Positions 3,484 to 24,899 of a DNA stretch of 41,893 nucleotides are shown here, piece after piece. The notes below the pieces were generated by a model. That model did no database searches. It saw only the letters and a program-made list of their open reading frames with translations, and was not told the origin of the DNA. How positions within the stretch are numbered: the first letter of the stretch is position 1; every line of letters starts with the position of its first letter. The DNA comes from Rhodospirillales bacterium (lineage in GTDB: Bacteria; Pseudomonadota; Alphaproteobacteria; Acetobacterales; Acetobacteraceae). The translations under genes and the position numbers were made by a program. Location: contig JANXVC010000532.1 of assembly GCA_025351925.1 (NCBI GenBank), positions 1-41,893 on the forward strand. The letters are read 5' to 3'.

Positions 3484-3568
3484 TGGTGCGGGCGGTCGGA
3501 ATCGAACCGACACTCCTTGCGGAACCGGATTTTGAGTCCGGCGCGTCTACCAGTTCCACCACGCCCGC
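3484..3568 (-). tRNA. tRNA-Leu (anticodon CAA)
   Basis: On the minus strand a complete class II tRNA reads from GCGGGCG to CGCCCGC plus discriminator A and an encoded CCA. The anticodon stem-loop CCGGA-CTCAAAA-TCCGG gives anticodon CAA (leucine, UUG codons). A long variable arm (TTCCGCAAGGAG region) and the T-loop GGTTCGATTCC are present. It lies just downstream of the phospholipase gene, on the opposite strand. Confidence 0.97.
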
Positions 3569-3681
3569 AACGCGCTATCCATGCCAGAGCCGGGCGCGCG
3601 CGACAAGCCAGACGTGACGACGAACCGCGAAAAGCTGTTTGCATCGCGGCGGTGGCGGCGTTATAGGGGCGTCCCACCTGA

Positions 3682-3757
3682 TCCCGGATAGCTCAGCTGG
3701 TAGAGCAAGCGACTGTTAATCGCTCGGTCGTTGGTTCGAGTCCAACTCCGGGAGCCA
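3682..3757 (+). tRNA. tRNA-Asn (anticodon GTT)
   Basis: A 76-base tRNA with acceptor arms TCCCGGA and TCCGGGA, discriminator G and encoded CCA. The anticodon stem-loop AGCGA-CTGTTAA-TCGCT gives anticodon GTT (asparagine). The D-arm AGCTCAGCTGGTAGAGC and T-loop GGTTCGAGTCC are canonical. It is divergent from the tRNA-Leu gene 113 bases upstream; the gap probably carries promoters for both. Confidence 0.97.
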
Positions 3758-7336: not shown

Positions 7337-7963
7337 TTAGCTCGGCCGCCGTATCTCCAGTTGCGTCGCATTGACGAAGCCGCGCTGGTCCTTGCCCACG
7401 CGGTGGAACATCTGCCGGTCCAGGACGTAACGCCGGGTGGGCGTTGCCTTTTCACAGTGTTCTCTAACAAATATGCCGCCGACCGGCTCCTCGCCCGTCC
7501 CTGGCCGCGCCTCGCTGCAGGTCCAATCAGCCTCCCCATAGCGAGCCTTCGCCAGTTCGCCCAGCAGATAGGCCTTCTTGCGCCGGTTGAGCCGTGCGGC
7601 TGGGTCAGTCTCGATGCGCAGGCCCTCGACGACGCCGGCGTCCGAGATCAGCAAGGTGAGCAGCACGGGATGGCCCCCCACTTTGGTTCCCTCAAAGGTG
7701 TCATTCAGGAACGCCAGCTCGTTCGACCCCTCTTGGTAGCTGAACCGCAGCGCGTGCAGCCCGGCGGCGTCGGCCGGGCACTGGCCATAGTCCTGCCAGC
7801 TCTGGACGCCAACCGGCGCACTGACGCAGGCAAAATCCGTGTAGCCCTCGGCCGGCAACTCGCTCGCCGACATGCCGACGCGGAGGTCGCGCAGGTCAGC
7901 CTCCTCCGCCCGGGCTGGCATCGCAATGAACAGGCCAAGCAGGACCGCGGCTGCGATGCGCAT
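7337..7963 (-). CDS. Exported protein of unknown function, end of the PQQ/Mo gene block
   Basis: A 208-residue protein I do not recognise. Residues 1-19 are a clear Sec signal peptide (MRIAAAVLLGLFIAMPARA, cleavage after ARA). The mature part begins with DLRDLRVGMSASELP, a VGM-S opening seen in several small periplasmic or lipoprotein families, and carries four cysteines (in FACVSAP, YGQCPAD, DWTCSEA and REHCEKA) that could form two disulfides. It starts two bases after the cytochrome c stop, so it is translated from the same message and is probably a periplasmic partner of the dehydrogenase/cytochrome pair. Confidence 0.85.
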   Translation of the reverse strand: MRIAAAVLLGLFIAMPARAEEADLRDLRVGMSASELPAEGYTDFACVSAPVGVQSWQDYGQCPADAAGLHALRFSYQEGSNELAFLNDTFEGTKVGGHPVLLTLLISDAGVVEGLRIETDPAARLNRRKKAYLLGELAKARYGEADWTCSEARPGTGEEPVGGIFVREHCEKATPTRRYVLDRQMFHRVGKDQRGFVNATQLEIRRPS

Positions 7964-7965
7964 GG

Positions 7966-8484
7966 CTACTCCGTCCCGCCTGCAGGAGCAGCCGCCGCAG
8001 ACTTGTAGGTGTTGCAGGTCCGCGCACCGGTGCCGAAGAACGCTTCGCAGTCGGAGTAGCTCGGCTCGCCACGATGCTGGACGTTGGCAATAACATAGTC
8101 GGTCACCGCCTCAATCTCGCTCGGCCTCAAGTAGGCCAAAGGCTCGATCGGAATGTCCTTGCCTAGTTCCTGGCGTGTGATTCCATAGCACCCATCGCCG
8201 TCATAGGCGCCGCGCAGGTGATAAGGCATTCCGGTGCCGGGCCGGCCGCAGCTCAGGACCTCAATAATCTGCTCGCGCGTCAGTGCCGATTTGCGCAGCG
8301 ACAGGGCATCGCCGCCATAGCCGCCGCCGCCGTCACCGTGCCATTTATGGCAGCCAACGCAATTCGCGCGCTGGTAAATCTGCTTGCCCTGGCCAGCCGG
8401 GCGATGCTCGCCCGGGTCCTGGGCCAACGCCGAGGCGCCAGCCAGCGTAACCAGCATCCCGGCCGCAATCAAAGCAAGTCGCAT
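7966..8484 (-). CDS. Periplasmic c-type cytochrome
   Basis: A 172-residue monoheme cytochrome c. A signal peptide (residues 1-21, ending ASALA) precedes the heme-attachment motif CVGCH at residues 42-46; Met86 in GTGMPYH is the likely distal ligand. The C-terminal Cys pair (SDCEAFF, RTCNTYK) is an addition to the basic fold. Its position directly downstream of a PQQ alcohol dehydrogenase matches the xoxF-xoxG type arrangement, so it probably takes electrons from that enzyme (inference from context). A very stable hairpin separates the two genes and may set their relative expression. Confidence 0.9.
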   Translation of the reverse strand: MRLALIAAGMLVTLAGASALAQDPGEHRPAGQGKQIYQRANCVGCHKWHGDGGGGYGGDALSLRKSALTREQIIEVLSCGRPGTGMPYHLRGAYDGDGCYGITRQELGKDIPIEPLAYLRPSEIEAVTDYVIANVQHRGEPSYSDCEAFFGTGARTCNTYKSAAAAPAGGTE

Positions 8485-8508
8485 ATTCGTCTCTCAAACT
8501 AAGGAGAT

Positions 8509-8544
8509 GACCATACCGGCGGGCACGCGCCCGCCGGTATGGTC
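8509..8544 (-). promoter_or_regulatory. Perfect 16-bp hairpin between dehydrogenase and cytochrome genes
   Basis: Arms GACCATACCGGCGGGC (8509-8524) and GCCCGCCGGTATGGTC (8529-8544) match perfectly around the loop ACGC. It begins six bases after the PQQ dehydrogenase stop and ends 24 bases before the cytochrome ATG. On the transcribed strand it is followed by ATCTCCTTAG, not a run of T, so it resembles an mRNA-stabilising or partial-attenuation element more than a simple intrinsic terminator. Confidence 0.85.
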
Positions 8545-8549
8545 CAATA

Positions 8550-10310
8550 TCAGAGCGCGAAGACGTAGAGCATCGAGCCGTTCTGCATCTTCTTCAGCTC
8601 GGGCGTCGATTCGATGAACCATTTGTCCCAAGCGCCACCGACCCCGACCAGAATGGCGACATACTGCTTGCCATCGACCGAGAAGGTCATCGGCGGCGCG
8701 TTCACCCCGCCGCCTGTGTTGAACTCCCACAGCTTCTCCAGCGACTTCGCGTCATACGCCATCACCTGGCCGGAGGGCTGGCTGGCGAACACCAAATCGG
8801 GCGTCGCGAGCAAGCCGCCGAGCTGTGGATAGTACGTGTCCACCTTGCCAGTCACCTTACCGGTGGTGACGTCGATCGCGGTGATGCTGCCGGTGATGCG
8901 CTCGTGCTCGCTTGGGCCGCCGCCCGTGTAAAACTCGCGCGCCTTCCACCCTCCCGTCTTCGTCTCCTCAACCGTGATGCGGTTGCAGCTCTCGATCACC
9001 GGGATGTACCAGCGCTGCAAAGTCGGATTGTATGCGGTCGGCGGCCAGTTCTTGCCGCCCATGTTGCCGGGGCAGATGTCCGCAACCTTGTTGGTGCGGG
9101 ACGGCGTCGCGGCGACGTTGTATTTCTGCACCGGCAACGCCGCGTCATACTCCGCCGGCTTGCCAGTCTCCGGATTCAGCCCCGCCGTCCAGGTTACCCG
9201 CTTGACGAACGGCGTACCCCAAACGAACTCGCCGCTGGCGCGGTCCACGGCGTAGCCGAAGCCGTTGCGGTTGGCGTGCAAGGCGAGACGCGAGGGACGC
9301 CCGTTGACCTGCGTATCGACCAGCACGTTTTCAGACGTGCTATCGTAGTCATAGGGGTCATTCGGCGTGTGTTGGAAGTGCCACTTCACCTTGCCGGTGT
9401 CGAGGTCGATGCCGAGCGACGAGTCGGTATAGAGGTTATCGCCGGGCCGGTGCGCGCTGTCCCAGTCCGGACCCGGGTTGCCGGTGCCCCAGACCAGCAT
9501 GTTGGTTGCGGGATCGTAGCTTCCGGTCACCCAGGTGGGACCGCCGCCATTGGCCGCAGCGCCGGTGCTGCCGCCCCAGCTCTCGCTGCCGGCCTCGCCC
9601 TTGGCCGGGATGGTGTAGGTCCGCCAGACCTCCTTCTGTGTCGTAAGGTCCGTCGCCGCCAGCCAACCGCGGATGCCATACTCGCCGCCGCCGACGCCGG
9701 TGATCGCCAGGTTCTTCACCACGAGCGGTGCGCCGGTCACGGTCTCGCCCTTGTCGGGATCGGCCACCTGGCGCTGCCAGGCGATCTCGCCGGTCTCACG
9801 GTTGGTCGCGATCAGCCGTCCGTCGAGCGTGTGCGACACCACCATGTCGCCCGAAAGCGCAATCCCGCGATTGTTGACGCCGCAGCACGCCACGGCGCCG
9901 GCCCAGTCGTGGTCGGTCTTCGGGTCCATCTTCCACGCCAGCGCGCCCTTGGCGACGTCGATTTTATAGACCGAACCCCAGCCGTCGGTGACATATAGGA
10001 AGCCGTCCATGGCAAGCGGCGTGCCCTCGAGCCCACCATGCGACCAGATGCCGCCCGGCTCGATGCCGCCCAGCGCCATGGTGAAGGCGACCTTGAGACC
10101 CTTTACGGTGTCCTTGTTGATCTGCGACAGCGTGGAGAAACGCTGCGCCGAGTAGGAACCATGGTGAGTCAGCCAGTTGGCCGGTTCCTGGGTCGCATTC
10201 AGCAACCGGTCGGGCGTCACATCAGCGGCCAGCGCCGGCGACACTGACAATCCGGCCAGCACGGTGCAGTTAAGGGCAATCTTACGCAAAGACGGCTTCA
10301 ATACAAACAC
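8550..10310 (-). CDS. PQQ-dependent alcohol dehydrogenase, lanthanide type (XoxF/ExaF-like)
   Basis: A 586-residue type I quinoprotein that oxidises primary alcohols in the periplasm using PQQ. A signal peptide ends at about residue 29 (SPALAA). The vicinal disulfide that stacks on PQQ is Cys142-Cys143 (AVACCGVNNRG). Metal and cofactor residues by family alignment: Glu210 (GGGEYG), Asn278 (WGTGN), catalytic Asp321 and, two residues on, Asp323 (PYDYD). The second Asp is the marker of lanthanide-binding enzymes such as XoxF, ExaF and PedH; calcium enzymes have a small residue there. Arg348 (HANRNG) is the expected PQQ contact. There is no fused cytochrome domain. Start is GTG at 10310 with GGAGA five bases upstream. 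Substrate range is not deducible. Confidence 0.93.
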   Translation of the reverse strand: MFVLKPSLRKIALNCTVLAGLSVSPALAADVTPDRLLNATQEPANWLTHHGSYSAQRFSTLSQINKDTVKGLKVAFTMALGGIEPGGIWSHGGLEGTPLAMDGFLYVTDGWGSVYKIDVAKGALAWKMDPKTDHDWAGAVACCGVNNRGIALSGDMVVSHTLDGRLIATNRETGEIAWQRQVADPDKGETVTGAPLVVKNLAITGVGGGEYGIRGWLAATDLTTQKEVWRTYTIPAKGEAGSESWGGSTGAAANGGGPTWVTGSYDPATNMLVWGTGNPGPDWDSAHRPGDNLYTDSSLGIDLDTGKVKWHFQHTPNDPYDYDSTSENVLVDTQVNGRPSRLALHANRNGFGYAVDRASGEFVWGTPFVKRVTWTAGLNPETGKPAEYDAALPVQKYNVAATPSRTNKVADICPGNMGGKNWPPTAYNPTLQRWYIPVIESCNRITVEETKTGGWKAREFYTGGGPSEHERITGSITAIDVTTGKVTGKVDTYYPQLGGLLATPDLVFASQPSGQVMAYDAKSLEKLWEFNTGGGVNAPPMTFSVDGKQYVAILVGVGGAWDKWFIESTPELKKMQNGSMLYVFAL

Positions 10311-10392
10311 GCTATTCTCCCAATTTTAATTTTCTATCAATCTTATCACTTGTACTAGATCGATATTTTTACTAGATAAACATTTTACTTTT
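10311..10392 (-). promoter_or_regulatory. AT-rich leader with direct repeats upstream of the first PQQ dehydrogenase
   Basis: This 82-base gap is strikingly AT-rich against the GC-rich surroundings. It contains two direct copies of TACTAGAT (10353-10360 and 10370-10377), 17 bases apart, and poly-A/T tracts. It ends in the ribosome binding site of the dehydrogenase. Such a region is a good candidate for a dedicated promoter or operator of the dehydrogenase gene; no precise -35/-10 pair is claimed. Confidence 0.5.
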
Positions 10393-10647
10393 TTACTTAC
10401 CGAACTTCTCAATCTTGCTCTTTTCCGTCTCATTCATCTGTTTGACGGTCGAGTCCTGGTTCTGCGCCCCGGTCGTCTGACTGGTCGTCGCGGCAGGCGC
10501 CGTGCTGGGCACCGAGGTCTGCTCCGGGCCCCGGGCAGGCCGGGCCTGCGACGCGGCGCCGGGCCCCGTTGGTGTCGTCGTCTGCGCCACAACCGGAAGC
10601 GACCCAGCAGCAACGACAGCGAGAAACGCAAGCATTGGCTTCAACAT
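10393..10647 (-). CDS. Small exported low-complexity protein upstream of the PQQ dehydrogenase
   Basis: An 84-residue protein I do not recognise. Residues 1-21 are a signal peptide (MLKPMLAFLAVVAAGSLPVVA). The mature part is rich in Thr, Pro, Ala, Gln and Gly, with no cysteine, and ends in a charged helix-like stretch (NETEKSKIEKFGK). Start is ATG 10647 with GGGAG eight bases upstream; longer starts would run back across the hairpin into the molybdenum-subunit gene. It lies between the molybdenum subunit and the dehydrogenase on the same strand. The 92-residue gene at 14224 is a protein of similar style beside the second dehydrogenase. Confidence 0.75.
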   Translation of the reverse strand: MLKPMLAFLAVVAAGSLPVVAQTTTPTGPGAASQARPARGPEQTSVPSTAPAATTSQTTGAQNQDSTVKQMNETEKSKIEKFGK

Positions 10648-10669
10648 GATGGAACTCCCGATGCGAACA

Positions 10670-10692
10670 GGGGGCCGCAGAGTGCGACCCCC
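10670..10692 (-). promoter_or_regulatory. Intercistronic hairpin after the molybdenum-subunit gene
   Basis: GGGGGCCGCA (10670-10679) pairs with TGCGACCCCC (10683-10692) around a GAG loop with a single mismatch. It lies eight bases after the stop of the large oxidoreductase subunit and 22 bases before the next start codon. There is no U-tract, so transcript stabilisation or processing is more likely than full termination. Confidence 0.65.
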
Positions 10693-10700
10693 TACTCTCA

Positions 10701-13040
10701 TTAGACCGCGAGCTGGTCGCGGATCGGCAGGTTGCGGATGCGCTTGCCGGTTGCCGCAAAGATCGCGTTGCACAACGCGGGCGCGAAGGGCGGCAGCCCC
10801 GGCTCCCCCGCACCGCTCGGCGGCGTGCCGGCGGCGGCCGGCACGATGTAGGTGTTAGTCACCCGCGGCGCCTCGTCGATCCGCACAACGGGGTAGTCGT
10901 CGTAGTTGCTTTGCTGCACCCGACCGTTCTTGAAGGAGATCTCCCCCATCTTGGCCACGCTCAGCCCCATGACCGCCGCACCTTCCATCTGCGATTGGAT
11001 GCGCTCGGGGTTGACGAACTGGCCGCAGTCGATCGCGGTATCGACCCTAGGCACCGTCAGCACGCCCTTCTTATCAATCGCCACCTCGACCACCGTCGCG
11101 ATGTAGCTGACGAAGCTGCGGTGCACCGCGATGCCCATGCCGTGCCCGTCCGGCAGCTTCCGGCCCCATCCCGCCTTCTCCGCCACCAATTCCACGACGT
11201 GACGGAGGCGGCCGGTGTCGATCGGGTAGCTCTCGACCGGCTCGCCGTAGTTCCACGGCTTATCAACGGACGCGCTAAATGGCACGATGCGGGCCGGCCC
11301 GATCAGCTCCAGCAGCACGTCCTTTGGATCCCGCCCGGTGGCGTGCGCGATTTCCGCCACCATGGACTGCACTGCGAACGCGCGCGGGATGTTGGACACC
11401 GAGCGCAACCAGCCGATGCGGGTGTGCGCCGCCGCCTCCGGGTTCTCGCAACGCACGTTGGCGATGTCGAACGGCATGTCGATCAGCCCCATGCCCAGTT
11501 CGATCGGGATTTGGTGCTTGGCGTCGGCCACGAACGTCGAGCCGATCGTCGGCGCGGCGCTTCGGTGACGCCAAGCTACCACCTTGCCGGACTTGTCCAG
11601 CCCCGCCTCGATCCGCTCGGCCGAGACCGTGTGCAGGTAGTCGTGGTGGACGTCATCCTCGCGCGTCCACTGCACCCGCACCGGCGCATTCAGCTCGCGC
11701 GCCAGCAGCGCCGCCTCCAGCACGTAGTCGCACTTGGACTTCCGGCCGAAGCCGCCGCCGAGCAGGGTCGTGTTGACCGTTACGTCGTCGGCCGAGATCT
11801 CCAGCGTCTTCGCCAGGTCTTCCCGCGTGCCGCCAGGGCTTTGGACCGGGGCCCAAACCTCCATCTTGCCGTTGGTCCATTTGGCGGTCGCCACCGGCGG
11901 TTCCATGCTGACGTGGGCGAGATGCGGCAGGTAGTATTCGCCCACGATGACCTTGTCGGCGGTCTTGAGCGCACCCTCGGCGTCGCCGTCGTTACGTACG
12001 ACGAGTCCCGGCGCGCGTACGGCGGTTTCCAGTTCCGCGCGGTAGGCGACGCTGTCGTACTTGGCGTTGGCGCCGTCATCCCAAACAATCTTCAGCGCGT
12101 TGCGGCCCTTGATCGCGGAACCGGTGTTGCTCGCGATCACCGCGACGCCGCCGAGCGGCTGGAACTTGGACGGCCAGGGCCAGCCCCGGACCTCCATGAC
12201 GCGCTCGACGCCCGGCACCTTCATCGCCTCCGCCGGGTCGAACGACACCATCTTGCCGCCGGTGACCGGAGGACGGGCGATGACCACATACTTCATGCCC
12301 GGCAGCCGCACGTCGGCGCCGTAGCCGGCCTTGCCCGTCGTGATGTCGCGCAGGTCGGTGATGCTGACGGCGCCCTTGCCGATCAGGCGGAACTCCTTGG
12401 GGTCTTTGAGCCGCAAGGTCTCCGCCGCTGGGACCGTCAGCTTCGAAGCATCCGCGGCGAGCTCGCCAAAGCCCAGGCGGCGGCCGGAGCCGTCATGCAC
12501 GACCTCATGCACGCCGGTCTTGACCTCCGACACCGGAACCTTCCAGCGCTGCGCCGCCGCTGTCTCCAGCATCGTACGGGCGGAGGCGCCGATCTCACGC
12601 ATCGGCAGCAAGTAGTGCCGGGTGCTGCGCGAGCCGTCGGTGTCCTGGTTGCCATACTTCGCCTCGTCGCCCGGCGCTTGCACGATGCGCACGCGCGCCC
12701 AGTCGGCGCCCATCTCATCCGCCACGATCATCGGCAGGCTGGTGCGCACGCCGGTGCCCATCTCGGACCGATGCGCGACGATGGTGACGATGCCGTCCGG
12801 CGCGATGGAGACGAAGACGCGCGGGTCGGTCACCACGCCATGCGGCATGGCCCCAGCGCCCGTGGCGTAGGCCGCCATGGCGCTGCGCGGCAGCATCGAC
12901 GCCGCCAGCACGAGGCCGCCCAGCGCGGTCGCGCCCTTGAACAGCCCGCGGCGGCTGACGTTCTCCACCCGACCGAGTGTCGGGCTGCTGGATGTCTGGC
13001 CGCTGGAGGCTTGCTCACCCAAATTCTGAAAATAGGTCAT
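10701..13040 (-). CDS. Molybdopterin-binding large subunit, aldehyde oxidase / isoquinoline 1-oxidoreductase type
   Basis: A 779-residue xanthine-oxidase-family molybdenum subunit of the IorB/AldH group. A twin-arginine signal ([14 protein letters not shown], about residues 29-56) shows export as a folded holoenzyme. Family landmarks include the molybdopterin loop [12 protein letters not shown], the [13 protein letters not shown] segment, [10 protein letters not shown], and the C-terminal catalytic glutamate Glu746 in GAGEPGLPP. The enzyme would hydroxylate an aldehyde or N-heterocycle with water as oxygen source. It starts four bases after the Fe-S subunit stop. Next to PQQ alcohol dehydrogenases, aldehyde oxidation is the more likely role, as in the AldFGH enzyme of acetic acid bacteria (inference). 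No cytochrome subunit is fused. Confidence 0.92.
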
Positions 13041-13043
13041 GGC

Positions 13044-13496
13044 CTAGGTCCCCGTAGCGGCGACGCGGACCGCCGCCTCGATGCGCTGGTAGCAGCCGCA
13101 ACGGCAAATGTTGCCCGACATGCCGCTGCGGATTTCCTCGTCCGACGGGTTCTTCGTCTCCACTAGCAACGACGCCGCCTGCATGATCTGCCCCGCCTGG
13201 CAGAATCCGCATTGCGGCACATTCAGCTCACGCCAGGCCCGCTGCACCGGATGGTCGCCTTGTGGGTGCAGACCCTCGATGGTGACGACCTCCTGCCCGG
13301 CCACATCGGAGATCGCGGTGATGCATGAGCGTGCCGCGCCGCCAGCGACGTGTACGGTGCAGGCGCCGCACAGTGCCTGGCCGCAGCCGAACTTGGTGCC
13401 GGTCAGGCCCAGCTCGTCGCGCAGGAACCACAACAGCGGTAAGGACGGATCGCCGTCCCAGCTCCGCTCCTGACCGTTCACTTTTACTTTAATCAT
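13044..13496 (-). CDS. [2Fe-2S] small subunit, aldehyde oxidase / isoquinoline 1-oxidoreductase type
   Basis: A 150-residue IorA-like subunit carrying two [2Fe-2S] clusters: the plant-ferredoxin type at Cys38, 43, 46 and 58 ([17 protein letters not shown]) and the helical type at Cys96, 99, 131 and 133 ([13 protein letters not shown]). It passes electrons from the molybdenum site to an external acceptor. It has no signal peptide and must be exported with the Tat-bearing large subunit (known for the family). ATG 13496 is preferred because GGAGG lies upstream and MIKVKVNGQ is the usual family N-terminus; extensions to 13550 overlap an upstream hairpin. Confidence 0.94.
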
Positions 13497-13684
13497 ATCT
13501 GGAAATCCTCCGATTGGCCCGTCTGCGGGCAGCGCGGTTGCCCGCCCCAAATGCTCGTCACCGGAAAGCCGGCGTGGGGACCGAAATAGTGGTCTCCCCG
13601 ATCAACTCCGGTCAACTCCAAAGCGTAGCGGCAGGCTCGGCTGAATGCCAACCGGAATCCGTACCGTCGTGTGGTGGCCGCAGG
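13497..13684 (-). promoter_or_regulatory. Leader region of the Fe-S/Mo subunit genes, with hairpins and a direct repeat
   Basis: This 188-base gap precedes the Fe-S subunit gene. It holds a perfect 7-bp hairpin (GCGGGCA 13525-13531 with TGCCCGC 13539-13545), a second one with a 2-base offset in one arm (GGGGACC 13576-13582 with GGTCTCCCC 13591-13599), and a direct repeat TCAACTCC at 13603 and 13613 (10-base period). It is the longest gap within the minus-strand block apart from its upstream edge, so an internal promoter here is plausible but unproven. Confidence 0.4.
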
Positions 13685-14227
13685 CTATGGCGGCGCTGGC
13701 TCATGGATCTCTGGCGCCTTAACGCCCTCGTACTCCAGGGTGATCACCACCCGCATCGTGCCCTCCTGACTCTCGAACCGCCGCGGCCGCCCATCCTGTG
13801 TGCCGACCCAAAGCCGGCTGCTGGCGCTATCCGGTGCCGACACGTCTTGCCGATACGTAAATATCCGCATGGGCGTCTCCTCCCCCGCACCATCAACGGC
13901 TTCGCAGTGGTGCGGCGGATAGCGGACCAGTCCAGTTGCCAATGCCTCGCGGTCAGACGCCGTCATCGGCAGCTTCATCCAGCGTCCGGCCCCCAGCGAC
14001 GTCGCGTAGATCACGTCGTCCACGACGATCTGCTCGCGCTCCATGGGCCGTCGTCGGGTCGGTGAGGTCGCGACCAGGACCGAGCGGTACTGCGGCGCGG
14101 TGCCGATCGAACGCGCCGCGGCCATGACGCCAGCGCAAGCGCCATCGTCCGCCCATGCCGGCATCGCGACGACGCAAAGCGTCGCAGCGGCGACAAACAG
14201 GCGCAGAGCCAAAGCGGCTTGCCTCAC
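13685..14227 (-). CDS. Exported protein of unknown function beside the second PQQ dehydrogenase
   Basis: A 180-residue protein I do not recognise. A signal peptide covers about residues 1-26 (LFVAAATLCVVAMPAWA). The mature part has two cysteines (GACAGVM and HHCEAVD), the segment REQIVVDDVIYATSLGAGRWMKLPM and a beta-rich C-terminus (GTMRVVITLEYEG), suggesting a small periplasmic beta domain. It starts at GTG 14227, overlapping the stop of the preceding gene by four bases (GTGA), so the two are translationally coupled. Position suggests a role with the PQQ dehydrogenase or molybdenum enzyme; no function is claimed. Confidence 0.83.
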   Translation of the reverse strand: MRQAALALRLFVAAATLCVVAMPAWADDGACAGVMAAARSIGTAPQYRSVLVATSPTRRRPMEREQIVVDDVIYATSLGAGRWMKLPMTASDREALATGLVRYPPHHCEAVDGAGEETPMRIFTYRQDVSAPDSASSRLWVGTQDGRPRRFESQEGTMRVVITLEYEGVKAPEIHEPAPP

Positions 14228-14502
14228 GGCCGTGTCGTTGCGGGAGGCGACGGCGTAGCATTCGGGGCTGCCAGGCGTGACGGAGCCAGCGGCGTGCCGG
14301 CCGGGGCTATCTGTCCGGTGGCGTCGGTCGGGGGGCGCTTGCCGCCGTCCGTCGTGCCCCGCGGCGGCGCTACGGCCATGTCAGGCGGCGCGACCTGACC
14401 AGTCGCATCTTTGGGCGCGGCGTTTTGCGCCATGAGGGGGAACGGCGACGTCACGGCGGCCAGCAAACCGCATGCGGCAAAGAGGCGAATCGGACGGGTC
14501 AT
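14224..14502 (-). CDS. Small exported Pro-rich protein with an internal repeat
   Basis: A 92-residue protein with a signal peptide (MTRPIRLFAACGLLAAVTS, cleavage near LMAQ). The mature part is Pro/Ala/Thr-rich and contains two copies of a unit that begins DATGQ followed by Val or Ile, then AP (KDATGQVAPPDMAVAPP and TDATGQIAPAGTPLAP). No cysteine and no recognisable domain. Start is ATG 14502. It is coupled to the next gene by a 4-base overlap. It may be a structural or tethering peptide in the periplasm, but this is a guess. Confidence 0.7.
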   Translation of the reverse strand: MTRPIRLFAACGLLAAVTSPFPLMAQNAAPKDATGQVAPPDMAVAPPRGTTDGGKRPPTDATGQIAPAGTPLAPSRLAAPNATPSPPATTRP

Positions 14503-14535
14503 CGGCACTCTCCTGCTTTTACGCTCAGAATTGGC

Positions 14536-14563
14536 CCCGCCCGCTGCCACCGCCGCGGGCGGG
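14536..14563 (-). promoter_or_regulatory. GC-rich hairpin after the second PQQ dehydrogenase
   Basis: Arms CCCGCCCGC (14536-14544) and GCGGGCGGG (14555-14563) pair perfectly around a 10-base loop, starting eight bases after the dehydrogenase stop. No T-tract follows on the transcribed strand. It resembles the hairpin after the other dehydrogenase gene in position and may likewise protect or attenuate the message. Confidence 0.65.
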
Positions 14564-14571
14564 AAGGCACG

Positions 14572-16305
14572 TCAGCGCTTGCGAACCGCAAACACCCAGA
14601 CGACGCCGCCCTGCGGCACCTCGTTGCGGTAGTCCACGCTCACCTTCGCCAGGCTGTCCTGCATGCGCTGGGCATCGACACCCCAGCCGCTCTGCACCGC
14701 GATGTACTGCACCCCATCCACTTCGTAAGACACGGGCACGCCGGTCACGCCGCTGTTGGTCTTCTGCTTCCACAGCACTTTGCCAGACTTTGCGTCGAAG
14801 GCACGGAAGTCGCGATCGTTGGTGCCGCCCATGAACACCAGGTCGCCACCCGTTGCGAGCACCGGGCCCCAAAGCTGGCTCTTGGCGAAGGGGTGGCTCC
14901 ACATCTTCTTGTTCGTGGACAAGTCCCAAGCCTGCAGCTCGCCTACATGGTCTGCGTTGGGGAATAGCGTCAGGCCGATATCCTCGAGCCCGGCGCCCAA
15001 ATAGAGCTGACCCGGCACGTAGTCCATCATCTTGCCCGACAGCGAGCCGCACAGGTTCTCGTTCGCCGGAATGTAGATCATCTTCGTGCGCGGCGAGTAT
15101 GCCGCTGGCGGCCAGTCCTTGCCGCCCCACAGCGACGGACAGAAATCGACCAGCTTATTCAGGCCGGGCTTACGTGCCTCATCATAGGTCGGGCGCCCGG
15201 TCTTCTTGTCGATCGAGGTGAACACGTTCTGCCGCACGAACGGCACGCCCGAGACGAAGCTGATGCCCTCCTCGCCGCGCTCCAGCGTCCACAGATATCC
15301 ATTGCGGCCGGGATGCACCATGCCCTTGATGGTCCGCCCGTCCTTCTGGATATCGACCAGCATCGGCGGATCCACCTCGTCCCAGTCCCAGGAGTCGTTG
15401 TGGTGATACTGATGCGCAGCCTTGATCGCCCCAGTGTCCACATCGAGCGCCAGGACGGACGTCGTGTGCAGGTTGTCGCCGGGCCGCGCGTTGCCCATCC
15501 AAGGCGCTGCGTTGCCGGTGCCCCAATACGCCGTGCCCTGCTCCGGGTCGTAGGTGCCGGTGATCCAAATGGAACCGCCGCCGGTCTTCCAGGTGTCGCC
15601 GGTCCAGGTGTCGCTGCCGGGTTCGCCGGGCTTCGGGATGGTGTATGTGCGCCACGCCTGCTCGCCCGTATTCGCATCGTAAGCTGCAACGAAGCCGCGT
15701 ATGCCGTATTCGCCGCCGGATCCGCCGACCATGATCTTGCCATGCGCAACCAGCGGCGCCAGCGTCATGTAGTGGCCCTTGCGGTAGTCCTCGACCTCCT
15801 TGGCCCAGATCTCCTTGCCGGTCTTGGCGTCCAGCGCCACTAGGAAGTCATCGACGGTCGCGACATACACCCTGTCCCCGAGCAGCGCGACGCCGCGGTT
15901 GGTCGGGTGCAACTGCGTCAGGTCTTCCGGAAGCTGGCGCTTGTAGCGCCAAAGCTGCTCGCCGGTCTTGGCGTCCACCGCGATCACCTGGGCCTGCGGC
16001 GTGGTCACGAACATCACGCCGTCATTGACGATCGGCGGCGACTGGTGCCCCTCCATCACCCCGGTCGAGAGTGTCCAGACCGGTACCAGGTCGGCTACGT
16101 TGGAGGTATTGATCTTGTCCAGCGGGCTATAGCCCTGACCGTCATAGGTGCCGCGATACATCAGCCAGTTGCGCGGCTCCGGGTTTTGCAGCCGCTGCTC
16201 AGTGACGGGGCTATAGGTCTTCACCTCCGCCTGGACCGGCCCGGGCGCGCCCGCCAGCCCCGCAAACGCCACGCCAGCCATAAGCATTCGTTTGAAATTC
16301 CGCAT
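14572..16305 (-). CDS. Second PQQ-dependent dehydrogenase, Asp-x-Asp type, no vicinal disulfide
   Basis: A 577-residue quinoprotein of the methanol/ethanol dehydrogenase family, exported by a signal peptide (residues 1-26, PGPVQA). Family alignment gives Glu199 (SGGEYG), Asn265 (WGTGN), catalytic Asp307 and the lanthanide-marker Asp309 (SWDWDEV). The beta-propeller repeats (AWDLSTNKKMW, AFDAKSGKVLW) are intact. Unlike the first dehydrogenase it has no adjacent cysteine pair: the corresponding stretch reads TQLHPTNRGVALLG. The ring that stacks on PQQ must therefore differ. The two dehydrogenases are clearly divergent, not a recent duplication, so they probably have different substrates. It lies 64 bases after the Rieske gene. 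Confidence 0.92.
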   Translation of the reverse strand: MRNFKRMLMAGVAFAGLAGAPGPVQAEVKTYSPVTEQRLQNPEPRNWLMYRGTYDGQGYSPLDKINTSNVADLVPVWTLSTGVMEGHQSPPIVNDGVMFVTTPQAQVIAVDAKTGEQLWRYKRQLPEDLTQLHPTNRGVALLGDRVYVATVDDFLVALDAKTGKEIWAKEVEDYRKGHYMTLAPLVAHGKIMVGGSGGEYGIRGFVAAYDANTGEQAWRTYTIPKPGEPGSDTWTGDTWKTGGGSIWITGTYDPEQGTAYWGTGNAAPWMGNARPGDNLHTTSVLALDVDTGAIKAAHQYHHNDSWDWDEVDPPMLVDIQKDGRTIKGMVHPGRNGYLWTLERGEEGISFVSGVPFVRQNVFTSIDKKTGRPTYDEARKPGLNKLVDFCPSLWGGKDWPPAAYSPRTKMIYIPANENLCGSLSGKMMDYVPGQLYLGAGLEDIGLTLFPNADHVGELQAWDLSTNKKMWSHPFAKSQLWGPVLATGGDLVFMGGTNDRDFRAFDAKSGKVLWKQKTNSGVTGVPVSYEVDGVQYIAVQSGWGVDAQRMQDSLAKVSVDYRNEVPQGGVVWVFAVRKR

Positions 16306-16369
16306 CGCTTGCCTCCGTTTTGGAATGATCCGCGTCTGTCCGGGCTTTCGTCACGGTGTCTCGCGCGGC

Positions 16370-16960
16370 CTAGGCCACCTGCCCTCCGACCTTGCCCAGA
16401 AAGGGCTGGGCAACCTCTAGGCTGCCCTCCGCCGATAGCCCCAGCGGCAACGGCGGCAGTCGCCGCAGCGCCGGGCCGCCGACCACCCGCCCCCCGCCGC
16501 GCGGGTCGAACTCCGAGCCGTGGCACGGGCAGTGCAGGATGCCCGCCTCCTGGCGCCACTCGGTCACCGGGCATTGTGCGTGGGTGCAGGTGGCGGAGTA
16601 GGCCAGGACGCCGTTCGCCGCGCGGGCGAGCGTCTCGGCATCCAAGGTCTCGGGGTCGAGGCGCAGCAACAGGATTTGGTTCAGCCGGGAGCCGTCGCGC
16701 ACGACACCGCTCGCCGGTTCTTTCGCCCATGCCAGGAGCTGCGGACCCGCCGATACGACGTCGTCGGGACGAAGCGCCTCCGCGCTTTCCGACACACCCA
16801 CGGCACGCACAAGACAATCGCCCGCAGTCGGACGGAGATTGCGCGCCGGCGGCGAAGTCTGCGCCTGCGCCCCACTGCCGCAGCAGCCAAGCGCCAAGCC
16901 TAATGCGAGTGCGTCACGTCGGGTATGGACATCCTGCAGTTGCATGACGGATTCCGCCAT
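16370..16960 (-). CDS. Exported Rieske [2Fe-2S] protein
   Basis: A 196-residue protein with a C-terminal Rieske domain. Cluster ligands are Cys125 and His127 (CTHAQC) and Cys144 and His147 (CPCHGS); Cys130 and Cys146 supply the stabilising disulfide of high-potential Rieske proteins. An N-terminal TRRDALALGLALG stretch looks like a Tat signal, as expected for an exported Fe-S protein. There is no membrane anchor beyond the signal. As first gene of the block it may carry electrons from the dehydrogenases or the molybdenum enzyme; a Rieske partner is known for arsenite oxidase-type enzymes but would be unusual here. GGAG lies nine bases before the next ATG. Confidence 0.9.
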   Translation of the reverse strand: MAESVMQLQDVHTRRDALALGLALGCCGSGAQAQTSPPARNLRPTAGDCLVRAVGVSESAEALRPDDVVSAGPQLLAWAKEPASGVVRDGSRLNQILLLRLDPETLDAETLARAANGVLAYSATCTHAQCPVTEWRQEAGILHCPCHGSEFDPRGGGRVVGGPALRRLPPLPLGLSAEGSLEVAQPFLGKVGGQVA

Positions 16961-20138: not shown

Positions 20139-20166
20139 GTGCGCAAGCAGACATGGGTTTGCGCAC
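20139..20166 (+). promoter_or_regulatory. 8-bp inverted repeat, candidate operator of the Liv-type operon
   Basis: GTGCGCAA (20139-20146) and TTGCGCAC (20159-20166) form a perfect inverted repeat with a 12-base spacer, one site per two helical turns. A TACAAT hexamer lies just upstream (20128-20133). It precedes the first transporter gene, where a dimeric regulator could bind. Which regulator is unknown. Confidence 0.5.
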
Positions 20167-20210
20167 ATAAGGCAAAAGGGGAGTGGACCGACCTGACCGA
20201 TAGCAGCCGG

Positions 20211-21050
20211 ATGCTGTCCAGTGCCACCTGCCCAGACCCGGCGCCCGGCTTGGCCGAGCCTCTGTTGCAGGTAGCGGGCGTCGTCGTGCGGTTTGGCGGC
20301 ATCGTGGCGCTGGGCGGCGTCTCGTTCGATGTCGGCGCCGGGCAAATCTGCGGGCTGATCGGACCGAACGGCTCGGGCAAGACCACTCTGTTCAACTGCA
20401 TCAGCGGCATCTACCGGCCCGGCAGGGGCGAGGTTCGCCTGGAAGGCCGGTCGCTGCAGGCGGTCAGCCGGCACCGCATCGTCGATCTCGGCATCGGCCG
20501 CACTTTTCAAAATGTCGCGCTGTTCCGCAGCATGAGCGTGCGGGAAAATATGCTCGCAGGGGCGCATCACCTCGGGCACACCGGCTTCGTCGCCAACGCG
20601 CTGCGGCTGCCGGCGGTGCGGCGGGAGGCAAGGTCGGCGCAGGGCCGGCTGGACCAACTGCTCGACCTGCTCCGCCTGCGCGAGGTCGCCGACACGCCGG
20701 TCGGCAGCCTGCCGTTCGGCACGCAGAAACGTGTGGAGATGGCCCGCGCGCTGATCGGCCAGCCGAAGCTGCTGCTGCTCGACGAGCCAGCCGGCGGCCT
20801 GAACCACTCGGAGGTGGACGAGCTCGAAGGACTGATGCGCCGCATCCGCGCCGAGTTCGACCTCAGCATCCTTTTGGTCGAGCACCACATGAACCTGGTG
20901 ATGCGCGTCTCCGACAAGGTGGTGGCGCTGGAGCTCGGCATGAAGATCGCCGATGGCACGCCCGACCAGGTGCAGAACGACCCGCAGGTCATCCGCGCCT
21001 ATCTCGGCGAGCCCGTCGCTGCGCAGCCGGCCCAGGCTGCGCATGTTTAA
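20211..21050 (+). CDS. livG: Branched-chain-amino-acid-type ABC transporter, ATPase subunit LivG
   Basis: A 279-residue ABC ATPase of the LivG group. Walker A is GPNGSGKTT, the signature is the LivG-type variant LPFGTQKRVEMARAL, Walker B is LLLLDEPAGG, and the H-loop follows in LLVEHHMNLVM. The C-terminal VIRAYLGE is typical of LivG. It energises import together with LivF, LivH, LivM and the binding protein. The start is uncertain: ATG 20211 is chosen, because the GTG at 20139 lies inside the inverted repeat. Substrates of this importer class range from amino acids to urea and aromatic or hydrophobic acids. Confidence 0.9.
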   Translation: MLSSATCPDPAPGLAEPLLQVAGVVVRFGGIVALGGVSFDVGAGQICGLIGPNGSGKTTLFNCISGIYRPGRGEVRLEGRSLQAVSRHRIVDLGIGRTFQNVALFRSMSVRENMLAGAHHLGHTGFVANALRLPAVRREARSAQGRLDQLLDLLRLREVADTPVGSLPFGTQKRVEMARALIGQPKLLLLDEPAGGLNHSEVDELEGLMRRIRAEFDLSILLVEHHMNLVMRVSDKVVALELGMKIADGTPDQVQNDPQVIRAYLGEPVAAQPAQAAHV

Positions 21051-21092
21051 GGCTGGGCATGTTTGAGACTGGGTATGTTTAAGGCTGGCCAT
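21045..21092 (+). repeat. Three 16-bp tandem repeats at the livG/livF junction
   Basis: Three consecutive units GTTTAAGGCTGGGCAT, GTTTGAGACTGGGTAT and GTTTAAGGCTGGCCAT occupy 21045-21092, with a degenerate fourth start (GCTTGAG). The livG stop codon is in the first unit, and the livF ATG spans the end of the third. Each unit junction makes an ATG, and because 16 is not a multiple of three, these ATGs fall in different frames. Copy-number change would alter livG-livF spacing. Confidence 0.85.
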
Positions 21093-21822
21093 GCTTGAGA
21101 TGCTGCTGAACCCGGCGCCCATCCTGGACGTCGCCGGGCTGCACGCCGGCTACGGCGAGGTGCAGGTGCTGCACGGCATCGACTTCACCGTCGGCCTGGC
21201 CGGCATCACGGCGCTGCTGGGCGCCAACGGCGCGGGCAAGACGACCACGCTGCGCGCGCTGAGCGGCATGGTCCGCACGTCGGGCAGCATCACTCTCGAC
21301 GGCGAACGGATCGACGGCCTCGCCACCGAGGACATCGCCCGGCGCGGCGTCGCCCACGTGCCCGACGGCCGCGGCACGCTCATGGAGCTGACGGTCGAGG
21401 AGAACCTGCGGCTTGGCGCCTACACCAGAAGCCGCAGCGAGCTGGCCCCCGACATGGCGCGGGTGTTCGGCCACTTCCCGCGTTTGAAACAGCGGCTGCG
21501 ACAGCAGGCTGGCACACTGTCGGGCGGCGAACAGCAGATGCTGGCGATCGGCCGCGCCTTGCTGCTGCGTCCGAAGCTGCTGCTGCTGGACGAGCCGTCA
21601 TTCGGCTTGGCGCCGCTGATCGTGCGGGAGATCTTCGAAATCATGCGCCGGGTGAACGAGGACGACCGGGTCAGCATCCTGCTCGTGGAGCAGAACGCCA
21701 GCCTGGCGCTGGATGTCGCGGACCGGGCCTTCCTGTTGGAAACCGGGCGCATCGTCACGGCAGGCCCAGCGGCCGAGCTGCGTCAGGACGAGTCAATTCG
21801 CCGCTCGTATCTGGGGTATTAG
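21091..21822 (+). CDS. livF: Branched-chain-amino-acid-type ABC transporter, ATPase subunit LivF
   Basis: A 243-residue ABC ATPase of the LivF group. Walker A is GANGAGKTT, the signature TLSGGEQQMLAIGRAL, Walker B LLLLDEPSFGLAP, and the H-loop is replaced in the usual LivF way (LLVEQNASLAL). It ends RRSYLGY. It pairs with LivG to form the ATPase heterodimer. The start lies inside a tandem repeat, 41 bases after livG, and there is no strong ribosome binding site, so expression may depend on coupling. Confidence 0.93.
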   Translation: MLEMLLNPAPILDVAGLHAGYGEVQVLHGIDFTVGLAGITALLGANGAGKTTTLRALSGMVRTSGSITLDGERIDGLATEDIARRGVAHVPDGRGTLMELTVEENLRLGAYTRSRSELAPDMARVFGHFPRLKQRLRQQAGTLSGGEQQMLAIGRALLLRPKLLLLDEPSFGLAPLIVREIFEIMRRVNEDDRVSILLVEQNASLALDVADRAFLLETGRIVTAGPAAELRQDESIRRSYLGY

Positions 21823-21826
21823 GCCG

Positions 21827-22696
21827 ATGGACGAATTCTTGCACCAGGTCCTATCCGGCATCGCCTCGGGCGGCATCTATGCCAGCGTCGCTTTGGCGCT
21901 GGTGATGATTTTTCAGGCCACGCACCACGTGAACTTCGCCCAGGGCGAGATGGCGATGTTCTCCACCTACATCGCGCTCGCGCTGATCCAGGCCGGCGTT
22001 CCCTATTGGGGCGCCTTCGCCATCACGGTCACGGCCTCCATGGTCATCGGCGCCGTCATCCAGCGCGTGCTGCTGACGCCCATGGCCGGGTCGCCGGTGC
22101 TGGCGAGCGTCGGCGTGTTCATCGGGCTGCTGCTGATCTTCAACAGCGTGGCGGGATGGCTGTTCGGCTACACGCTGAAGCAGTTCCCCAGCCCGTTCGA
22201 GGGGCCGCCGGTGCTCGGCGGCTTCGTCACCCGGCACGACCTCGGCTCGACCGCCGTGACCCTGGTCGTGCTGGCCGGCGTCTATGTGTTCTTCCGCTTC
22301 ACCAACCTCGGCCTGGCGATGCGCGCCGCCGCCTACAACCCGGTGTCCAGCCGGCTGATGGGCATCCGGGTCGGCTTCATGCTTTCGCTCGGCTGGGGCC
22401 TTGCCGCCGGGATCGGCGCGGTGGCTGGGATGATGATCGCGCCGGTGGTGTTCCTCGACCCCAACATGATGTCGGGCGTGCTGCTGTATGCATTCGCCGG
22501 AGCGTTGCTGGGTGGGATCGCCAACCCGCTCGGCGCGGTGTTCGGCGGCTTCGCCATCGGCATCATCGAGAACCTCGCCGGCGCCTACATCGTCGGCTCC
22601 GAGCTGAAGCTGACCCTGGCGCTGGTGATCATCGTCGTGGTGCTGACGGTCCGGCCGGCGGGGCTGTTCGGCCGCGTCGTGGTCAGCAGGGTTTAG
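21827..22696 (+). CDS. livH: Branched-chain-amino-acid-type ABC transporter, permease LivH
   Basis: A 289-residue inner-membrane permease with about eight hydrophobic segments. It begins MDEFLHQVLSGIASGGIYASVALALV and contains the LivH hallmarks NFAQGEMAMFS and LAMRAAAYNPVSSRLMGI, the cytoplasmic loop that contacts the ATPases. The family motif GGIANPLGAVFGGFAIGIIENLA is near the C-terminus. It starts four bases after the livF stop. Confidence 0.93.
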   Translation: MDEFLHQVLSGIASGGIYASVALALVMIFQATHHVNFAQGEMAMFSTYIALALIQAGVPYWGAFAITVTASMVIGAVIQRVLLTPMAGSPVLASVGVFIGLLLIFNSVAGWLFGYTLKQFPSPFEGPPVLGGFVTRHDLGSTAVTLVVLAGVYVFFRFTNLGLAMRAAAYNPVSSRLMGIRVGFMLSLGWGLAAGIGAVAGMMIAPVVFLDPNMMSGVLLYAFAGALLGGIANPLGAVFGGFAIGIIENLAGAYIVGSELKLTLALVIIVVVLTVRPAGLFGRVVVSRV

Positions 22697-22700
22697 GCGG

Positions 22701-23642
22701 ATGCGCATCTTGCTGCCCTTGGCTAGCGTCCTGCTCGTTATTGCCGCGGCGGCGCTGGCGTTCGTCGCGAGCGACTATCGGCTGTTCCAATTGACCATGG
22801 TCGTCGTCTATGCGGTGGCGATCCTTGGGCTCGCCTTGGTGACGGGGTTCAATGGGCAGATCTCGCTGGGCCACGGCGCGTTCTATGCCGTCGGCGCCTA
22901 CGTCACGGCCATTCTCATGTCGCTGTACGACGTGCCGTATTGGGCGACCTTGCCGGTTTCCGCGGTGGTCTGTGCGGTGATCGGCTTCCTGATTGGGCTG
23001 CCGGCGTTGCGGCTTGGCGGGTTGTACTTGGCGCTTACGACCTTTGCATTGGCGGTCGCCACGCCGCAGCTGCTGAAATACAAGCTGTTCGAGGGCTGGA
23101 CCGGCGGCGTGCAGGGCCTCACCCTCGACAAGCCCGACCCGCCCTTCGGCCTGCAGATCAACGCCGACCAATGGCTATATCTGTTCACCCTCGGCGTCGG
23201 CGTCGTCCTGTTCATCCTCGCGGGCAACCTGGTGCGCGGCCGCATCGGACTCGCGATGCGCGCAATCCGCGACCACCCGCTCGCTGCCGAGGCGACGGGC
23301 ATCGACGTCGCGCTGTTCAAGACCCGCACTTTCGCGGTGAGCGCGATGTTCACTGGAATTGCCGGCTCGCTCGGCGCCATTGCAGTCGGGTTCGTGGCGC
23401 CGGACAGCTTCACCGTGCTGCTGTCGATCACGCTGTTCGTTGGGCTGGTGGTGGGCGGGGTCGCCTCGATCGCCGGGCCGGTGTTTGGCGGCGTGTTCAT
23501 CGCATTCCTGCCCAACGTCGCCGAGGAGATCTCGAAGGCAGCGCCCGGCGCGGTGTACGGCGTCGTGCTGATCGCCTTTATGTATCTGCTGCCGTCAGGC
23601 GTCGCCGGCGGTCTGGGCCGCCTGCTGCGGCGGGCGGCGTAA
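22701..23642 (+). CDS. livM: Branched-chain-amino-acid-type ABC transporter, permease LivM
   Basis: A 313-residue permease, partner of LivH. It shows the LivM pattern VTGFNGQISLGHGAFYAVGAY, then LAMRAIRDHPLAAEATGID (ATPase-contact loop) and GGVASIAGPVFGGVFIAFLP. It starts four bases after livH and is followed after 26 bases by the binding protein with a strong ribosome binding site (AGGGAGG). Confidence 0.93.
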   Translation: MRILLPLASVLLVIAAAALAFVASDYRLFQLTMVVVYAVAILGLALVTGFNGQISLGHGAFYAVGAYVTAILMSLYDVPYWATLPVSAVVCAVIGFLIGLPALRLGGLYLALTTFALAVATPQLLKYKLFEGWTGGVQGLTLDKPDPPFGLQINADQWLYLFTLGVGVVLFILAGNLVRGRIGLAMRAIRDHPLAAEATGIDVALFKTRTFAVSAMFTGIAGSLGAIAVGFVAPDSFTVLLSITLFVGLVVGGVASIAGPVFGGVFIAFLPNVAEEISKAAPGAVYGVVLIAFMYLLPSGVAGGLGRLLRRAA

Positions 23643-23668
23643 CACAAACCGTAAAAAGGGAGGTTTTC

Positions 23669-24889: not shown

Positions 24890-24899
24890 GACCGGCGGG

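Follow-up and report, generated by a model that had tools for sequence, protein, structure and literature searches.

The window analyzed here, a stretch of 41,893 nucleotides from a Rhodospirillales bacterium of the family Acetobacteraceae (assembly GCA_025351925.1, contig JANXVC010000532.1), carries ten co-directional minus-strand genes for periplasmic oxidation, running from 16960 to 7337. One of its two pyrroloquinoline quinone (PQQ) dehydrogenases, here named PQQ1, belongs to a distinct clade from Proteobacteria and Deinococcota in which each member is accompanied by a gene for an exported Rieske protein. Gene linkage and sequence suggest that, in a system for two-step oxidation, PQQ1 probably passes its electrons to this Rieske protein. 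A wider reading is on balance somewhat favored, in which the whole clade would use an exported high-potential Rieske protein as acceptor, the vicinal disulfide, swapped for a His motif in nearly all members, would belong to the cytochrome route rather than to catalysis by PQQ itself, and the Rieske-PQQ1 pair would have been built in Acetobacteraceae together with a molybdenum aldehyde dehydrogenase into an alcohol-to-acid system.

Along the minus strand the run comprises the genes for the Rieske protein, PQQ1, P92, U180, IorA, IorB, S84, PQQ2, CytC and U208, separated by 64, 69, -4, 188, 3, 53, 82, 65 and 2 bases. An earlier note on this DNA, made from the letters alone, had described ten consecutive genes, and all ten open reading frames (ORFs) indeed exist within 7337-16960, with gaps of -4 to 188 bases. 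Likewise, the protein families it had named (two PQQ dehydrogenases, a molybdenum hydroxylase, a Rieske protein and a cytochrome c) were borne out by Pfam/NCBIfam scans. The starts of IorA and S84 were refined and are most likely at 13496 (giving 150 aa) and 10647 (giving 84 aa), respectively; the scans used longer ORFs of 168 aa for IorA and of 108 and 126 aa for P92 and S84. Signal peptides were judged by reading of the sequences. No Pfam/NCBIfam model was matched above its cut-off by U208, U180, P92 or S84 (208, 180, 92 and 84 residues).

PQQ1 (14572..16305, 577 aa) and PQQ2 are both members of the methanol/ethanol family, with scores of 601.3 and 527.2 bits against TIGR03075 (cut-off 480.05). 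The best solved relative of PQQ1 is the quinoprotein ethanol dehydrogenase 6zcv (E 8.9e-112), which we take to be PedH. Relatives of PQQ1 were found at E 1e-140 in 31 of 397 family genomes (32 places) and at E 1e-130 in 11 of 385 class and 12 of 398 phylum genomes, with the window's own genome included in each of the latter two counts and G753 falling in both. In addition, 316 plasmid records matched PQQ1, and among the best 30 of these nine showed 46-74% identity and the others 42% or less. The nine comprise Roseomonas marmotae, Azoarcus sp. KH32C, Methylobacterium aquaticum, four Paracoccus, Alteromonas macleodii and Deinococcus aetherius. Thus, 59 distinct full-length clade members were counted, i.e., 32 from the family (window included), 10 from the class, 10 from the phylum and 7 further plasmid records; the Roseomonas marmotae record is a family place and was counted once, and a second Paracoccus yeei record (L199) stands outside the 59. 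The clade was defined by identity to PQQ1 (at least 46%, the next enzymes reaching about 42% or less) and not by the presence of a Rieske gene. For comparison, 32 other PQQ dehydrogenases were taken from the same loci and eight control plasmid records. Before counting, L112 (a copy of L171) and PQQ fragments of less than 480 residues (L032, L043, L138, L151) were dropped, and loci with duplicate identifiers (L047-L051 and the short L152-L161 except L156) were counted once.

A Rieske gene on the same strand within 1.2 kb was present for all 59 clade members (54 upstream, 5 downstream) and for none of the 32 other PQQ dehydrogenases. The order of the two genes varies, either one coming first, across alpha-, beta- and gammaproteobacteria and Deinococcus, the groups spanned by the clade, and in the additional record L199 the Rieske gene adjoins the PQQ gene as well. 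In L120, a non-clade enzyme has an opposite-strand Rieske gene 791 bases off, which belongs to the neighboring clade member. In a tree, the 59 members form one clade (Shimodaira-Hasegawa-like approximate likelihood ratio test, SH-aLRT, 99) with a single change of the Rieske label relative to the 32 others; the tree was built by a quick method with midpoint root, and some long branches, Deinococcus included, were flagged. Viewed from the Rieske side, 39 places occur in 36 of 397 family genomes, and 33 of them adjoin PQQ1 or its start. The earlier note had regarded a Rieske protein in such a set as unusual. Within the clade, the protein is no odd guest and rather the constant partner of PQQ1.

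The Rieske protein (16370..16960, 196 aa, PF00355 4.5e-11) features a twin-arginine motif and the cluster-binding boxes CTHAQC and CPCHGSEF, and among solved proteins it is closest to the Rieske protein 1nyk (E 8.2e-29), presumably that of Thermus. The CxHxxC and CxCHxS boxes, with the disulfide cysteines and the Ser, were found in 66 of 66 Rieske relatives, PQQ1-linked or not and window included. Two arginines near the N-terminus occur in 64 of the 66, the exceptions being one sequence that is unreadable there and one distant relative unlinked to PQQ1. Judged from these motifs and general knowledge, the protein would be exported by the twin-arginine translocation (Tat) system and have a high potential. 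A cytochrome b gene, as expected beside a Rieske protein of a bc complex, was found neither among the ten genes by family search nor in the neighboring ORFs by reading.

PQQ1 retains the catalytic residues of its family and differs from most members in another respect. The active-site Glu, Asn, Asp and Arg were retained in 42 of 42 aligned rows of the PQQ1 clade (clade A) and 15 of 15 of the PQQ2 clade (clade B). A vicinal Cys-Cys over PQQ is usual, although not universal, in the family, and in methanol dehydrogenase the disulfide plays a part in passing electrons to cytochrome c. This pair is present in 28 of 32 other enzymes and missing in 58 of 59 clade members, all 58 of which have xxHxT[NS]RG in its place, a motif found in 0 of the 32; accordingly, PQQ2 reads ACCGVNNRG at this site and PQQ1 QLHPTNRG. 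Two residues past the catalytic Asp, a second Asp follows in both enzymes (NDSWDWD in PQQ1, NDPYDYD in PQQ2). This extra lanthanide-type Asp was found in 42 of 42 aligned clade members, and PQQ1 is probably of the lanthanide type.

The two dehydrogenases also differ in their cytochrome neighbors: an adjacent, dedicated c-type cytochrome gene is found for PQQ2 and not for PQQ1. Carriers were searched for among c-type cytochromes, using 14 cytochrome queries and, within the clade, the 41 members flanked by 3 kb on either side. By homology, a CXXCH cytochrome match within 3 kb was obtained for only 2 of these 41, compared to 22 of 24 other PQQ dehydrogenases, and in the two clade loci (L118, L134) it is the cytochrome of the PQQ2 module itself. 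A count based on ORF calling had recovered a CXXCH protein for 15 of 24 controls, overlooking some, and its hits in L119 and L121 were IorA itself; the homology count replaced it. According to their annotation, six of the eight control plasmid records have PedF or another c-type cytochrome, Burkholderia multivorans has a high-potential iron-sulfur protein (HiPIP) and Paraburkholderia none, and the homology search added a cytochrome match in the latter two. The cytochrome of the PQQ2 module was considered as a general carrier for PQQ1 and dropped, given the 39 of 41 wide loci without a match. Shared electron carriers, as proposed in the earlier note, thus give way to one carrier per dehydrogenase as the likelier arrangement, since PQQ1 always comes with the Rieske protein and the cytochrome c goes with PQQ2.

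Combined, the island would form a periplasmic system for the oxidation of alcohol via aldehyde to acid, made up of two modules. PQQ1 would oxidize an alcohol, probably as a lanthanide-type enzyme, and its electrons would pass singly to a dedicated, Tat-exported, high-potential Rieske protein replacing the usual cytochrome c. The IorAB-type molybdenum enzyme would turn the aldehyde to the acid and feed the same or a neighboring carrier, while the second module would add a conventional PQQ dehydrogenase with its own cytochrome c, and the carriers would deliver the electrons to the respiratory chain. PqqB/C/E-like genes, assigned by Pfam and from their translations, lie no more than 8 kb from another PQQ dehydrogenase of the same genome, which was counted in favor of this scheme. 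Its assembly comprises 5.92 Mb in 547 contigs with ten TIGR03075 matches, four of them above the cut-off.

Several observations weigh against this scheme. The link between Rieske protein and PQQ1 is not fully reciprocal: five of the 39 family Rieske places (L139-L143) lack PQQ1, a sixth (L145) being a contig end, and of 16 plasmid records with the Rieske protein nine are clade records and seven come from Thermaceae, two of which were read and have no PQQ gene beside it. The Deinococcus member is Rieske-linked and yet retains the Cys pair, and 4 of the 32 non-clade enzymes lack both the pair and a Rieske gene. Thus, loss of the Cys pair is not required for Rieske linkage, and its role as a prerequisite was abandoned. 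As Deinococcus, which keeps the pair, is sister to the other members in the tree, the Rieske link may have arisen before the pair was lost. Moreover, seven of the 59 members (L174-L176, L178, L187-L189) have Ala at the extra-Asp position, as in calcium-type enzymes. With regard to the carriers, all 14 cytochrome queries stem from non-clade loci, which raises the control figure, and the genome could encode a cytochrome for PQQ1 at another place. The two-step part varies between loci, with IorB absent within 10 kb in 19 of 41 wide loci and aldA nearby instead in five plasmid loci, among Azoarcus, Paracoccus and Alteromonas records. As a separate observation, the PQQ1-less Rieske genes of L141, L142 and L143 (near 10000) directly follow genes that read as type II secretion.

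Instead of being the final acceptor, the Rieske protein might stand between PQQ1 and a general cytochrome c, or be a tightly bound subunit. Periplasmic cytochromes are common in these bacteria, and two loci put the Rieske-PQQ1 pair next to the cytochrome of the PQQ2 module. This possibility, which we regard as unlikely, departs from the preferred scheme solely in what comes after the Rieske protein.

The molybdenum hydroxylase bears on a further alternative. IorA (13044..13496, two [2Fe-2S] domains, PF01799 1.8e-28, PF00111 1.3e-07) and IorB (10701..13040, 779 aa, MoCoBD_1 and MoCoBD_2, twin-arginine motif by reading) represent the IorAB type of the xanthine oxidase family, in which the molybdenum subunit is combined with a separate two-cluster 2Fe-2S subunit; no FAD (flavin adenine dinucleotide) protein is encoded among the ten genes. 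The best solved relative of IorB is 8gy3_C, an aldehyde dehydrogenase large subunit (E 2.5e-79), and we assume 8gy3 to be the enzyme of acetic acid bacteria, with a haem subunit. In arsenite oxidase, a Rieske subunit serves a molybdenum protein. By analogy, the Rieske protein could be the carrier of IorAB, and PQQ1 would use an unlinked cytochrome c. The frequent proximity of IorAB, the lack of a haem subunit beside it in the PQQ1 module and a weak match of the Rieske protein to the model for the small subunit of arsenite oxidase (42.9 bits, below the cut-off of 95.65) agree with this. Yet IorB lies within 10 kb of PQQ1 in only 31 of 59 members (several of them short-flanked), or 22 of the 41 with 3 kb flanks, whereas the Rieske gene is found with PQQ1 throughout. 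The pair also occurs without IorAB in two Roseicella loci (L036, L038) and in plasmid loci of Azoarcus, Methylobacterium, Paracoccus, Alteromonas and Deinococcus, making a role as IorAB carrier quite improbable. For the preferred scheme, the presence of IorB or aldA near PQQ1 supports the order of alcohol before aldehyde without fixing the substrate, and substrate guesses from the aldA neighbors are weak leads. The two-step oxidation suggested by the earlier note is therefore plausible and fits the enzyme types, with the reservation that IorB is variable and some loci have aldA.

Constant linkage alone would equally fit a dedicated helper that loads or guards PQQ1, in maturation or sensing, without carrying catalytic electrons. 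This is very unlikely, as all 66 relatives retain the full set of redox ligands with the disulfide cysteines and Ser of high-potential forms, and 39 of 41 wide loci lack a linked c-type cytochrome, the one kind of carrier searched for.

The ten-gene island consists of two modules, which are mostly apart in relatives and joined in a few. Block A comprises the exported Rieske protein, PQQ1 and, variably, U180 and the molybdenum hydroxylase pair; block B comprises PQQ2, the cytochrome c and U208. For this comparison, 150 family genomes were searched with U180 and U208 and most neighborhoods were read, with G093 left out. Conservation of the neighborhood had been set beforehand as the test on which the island could fail, and the neighborhood proved to be conserved, as three genomes show: G382 has the order IorA-IorB-S84-PQQ2-CytC-U208-Rieske-PQQ1, G394 the same two blocks in convergent orientation, and G041 Rieske-PQQ1-P92-U180-IorA-IorB-S84. 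Blocks A and B occur together in two genera with differing order and orientation; their joining in different orders argues for a shared function, and the clustering of the same families in another genus, with shuffled order, indicates that the arrangement is not due to chance. A chance run of unrelated periplasmic oxidation genes, which would agree with the separation of the modules in most genomes read, is hardly credible in view of these two genera. The single island of the earlier note is nevertheless to be modified: its genes do cluster in relatives, but as separable modules, with module B in the same stretch as PQQ1 in only 3 of 32 family places (window, L118, L134), G108 being unjudgeable for PQQ1 due to a contig end. 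In G108, modules A and B are contiguous and lie ahead of an aldolase-like gene (named by reading). In G017, this gene comes directly after the IorAB-S84 end, without module B in between. Hence, the joined island is not universal even within the genus. In both genomes, contig ends cut module A before PQQ1. Besides, the IorB of G017 (L031, 10223-12711) matches in two pieces with a gap, perhaps due to an assembly error or a broken gene.

The four exported proteins had been suggested as possible dedicated partners. Of these, U208 goes with PQQ2, U180 is found near Rieske and PQQ1, and P92 and S84 look like low-complexity proteins. U180 (13685..14227) was modeled by AlphaFold from six sequences with a mean predicted local distance difference test (pLDDT) score of 83.1. 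Among solved folds, the model resembles LppX (2byo, Z 12.9, root-mean-square deviation (rmsd) 3.9, 143 residues aligned), LprF (12.1) and LprG (11.8), with rmsd values of 3.6-3.9. Foldseek returned LolA at E 9e-06, yet with top-row TM-scores of just 0.3 to 0.5, and a U180 profile found no match among PDB sequences. By its predicted fold, U180 can be assigned to the LolA/LppX superfamily. Matches to U180 occur in 6 of 150 family genomes, and its named relatives come from two Roseicella, two Acetobacteraceae assemblies and one labelled Rhodospirillales. Wherever the contig permits, it lies near Rieske and PQQ1 (G041, G024, G112, and L112-L114, there after IorB). Some other clade loci have different small proteins at its place, four of which matched no Pfam family. 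P92 (14224..14502) is a small Pro-rich exported protein of 92 aa with a homologue in G041 and partial matches at the contig ends of G017 and G108; S84 (10393..10647) is likewise small and exported and lies downstream of IorB wherever both were matched. By composition, both look disordered.

Module B is the more conventional one. PQQ2 (8550..10310, 586 aa) is followed by CytC (7966..8484, 172 aa, one CXXCH, PF13442 3.7e-06), the c-type cytochrome partner of PQQ2, and by the exported U208 (7337..7963). A CytC homologue was found in 14 of 15 clade-B loci. U208 matched in 16 of 150 family genomes and in none of the plasmid records, and its neighbor is a PQQ2 relative in all 12 loci of a first set and in five of six more, the sixth (L148) being a contig end; its predicted model, built from two sequences, is poor (mean pLDDT 44). 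CytC accompanies PQQ2 and U208 except in a second copy in the window's own genome (contig C223, L027, 9332-11905), where the intervening cytochrome gene is lost and the net gap amounts to about 420 bases relative to G017. Judged by reading, the genes next to this copy encode a RuBisCO-like protein and a four-carbon acid sugar kinase. In the window, a perfect 16-bp stem-loop separates the PQQ2 and cytochrome genes on the minus strand (8509..8544; -39.2 kcal/mol and z -7.06 for the stretch 8490-8552), and it may determine how much dehydrogenase is made relative to the downstream products. Among 15 module-B loci, the 90 bases past the PQQ2 stop reached a z of at most -2 in 10, with differing sequences, and 3' folding of the 59 clade-A genes gave a median z of -2.72 with 26 under -3 (mononucleotide shuffles). 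One hairpin following PQQ1 does not exceed shuffled sequences in strength (z -0.93). A simple pattern search for a sigma-54 promoter yielded a single match, inside the U208 gene.

The system can be compared to several known ones. With the PedH/ExaF-type alcohol dehydrogenase (6zcv) and its PedF, PQQ1 shares family, catalytic residues and the extra Asp, but it is without the vicinal Cys pair and has a Rieske protein as its companion, whereas five PedF-type control loci feature cytochrome c550 and no Rieske protein. XoxF-XoxG likewise combines a PQQ dehydrogenase with a dedicated small carrier, as the island does, and PQQ2-CytC is similar in layout to this part of the XoxFGJ methanol dehydrogenase system; family search of the ten genes revealed no XoxJ-type solute-binding protein, and U208 matches no family. 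IorB is closest to the large subunit of the acetic acid bacteria aldehyde dehydrogenase (8gy3), but no multi-haem cytochrome subunit lies beside IorAB here. Arsenite oxidase AioAB also uses a Rieske protein for a periplasmic oxidase, with weak similarity, but its partner is a molybdenum enzyme and here a quinoprotein. Finally, the PQQ dehydrogenase of Burkholderia multivorans (L190) has an iron-sulfur carrier gene nearby as well, but this is a HiPIP, and the enzyme stands outside the clade, keeps the Cys pair and has a cytochrome c match within 3 kb. The HiPIP gene itself (L190, 8038-8355) is another possible iron-sulfur carrier for this enzyme family.

Elsewhere in the window, genes of a branched-chain amino acid type ATP-binding cassette transporter and a Baeyer-Villiger-type monooxygenase were recognized from their translations (20139-26546), and tRNA-Leu(caa) and tRNA-Asn(gtt) lie on opposite strands at 3484-3757.

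A literature search, short on subscription journals, revealed no paper on a pair of Rieske protein and PQQ dehydrogenase. Passages of PMC11102522, PMC5023235, PMC10715153 and PMC4013037 mention the two only separately.

The interest of the island is narrower than the earlier note had it, as it centers on one gene pair, and also broader, as this pair is retained from one phylum to another. PQQ alcohol dehydrogenases hold a central place in the metabolism of methanol, ethanol and lanthanides, and the usual teaching is that the type I enzymes are linked to cytochrome c. If the proposed role holds true, this widespread clade, with its fixed Rieske partner, would represent a second solution beside the cytochrome c linkage and suggest an undescribed electron route, and its natural variants would allow testing what the vicinal disulfide does. 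In the plasmid records read, annotated clade members are named just 'PQQ-dependent dehydrogenase, methanol/ethanol family' or similar; due to such generic annotations, pathway models may assume the wrong carrier for members of this clade.

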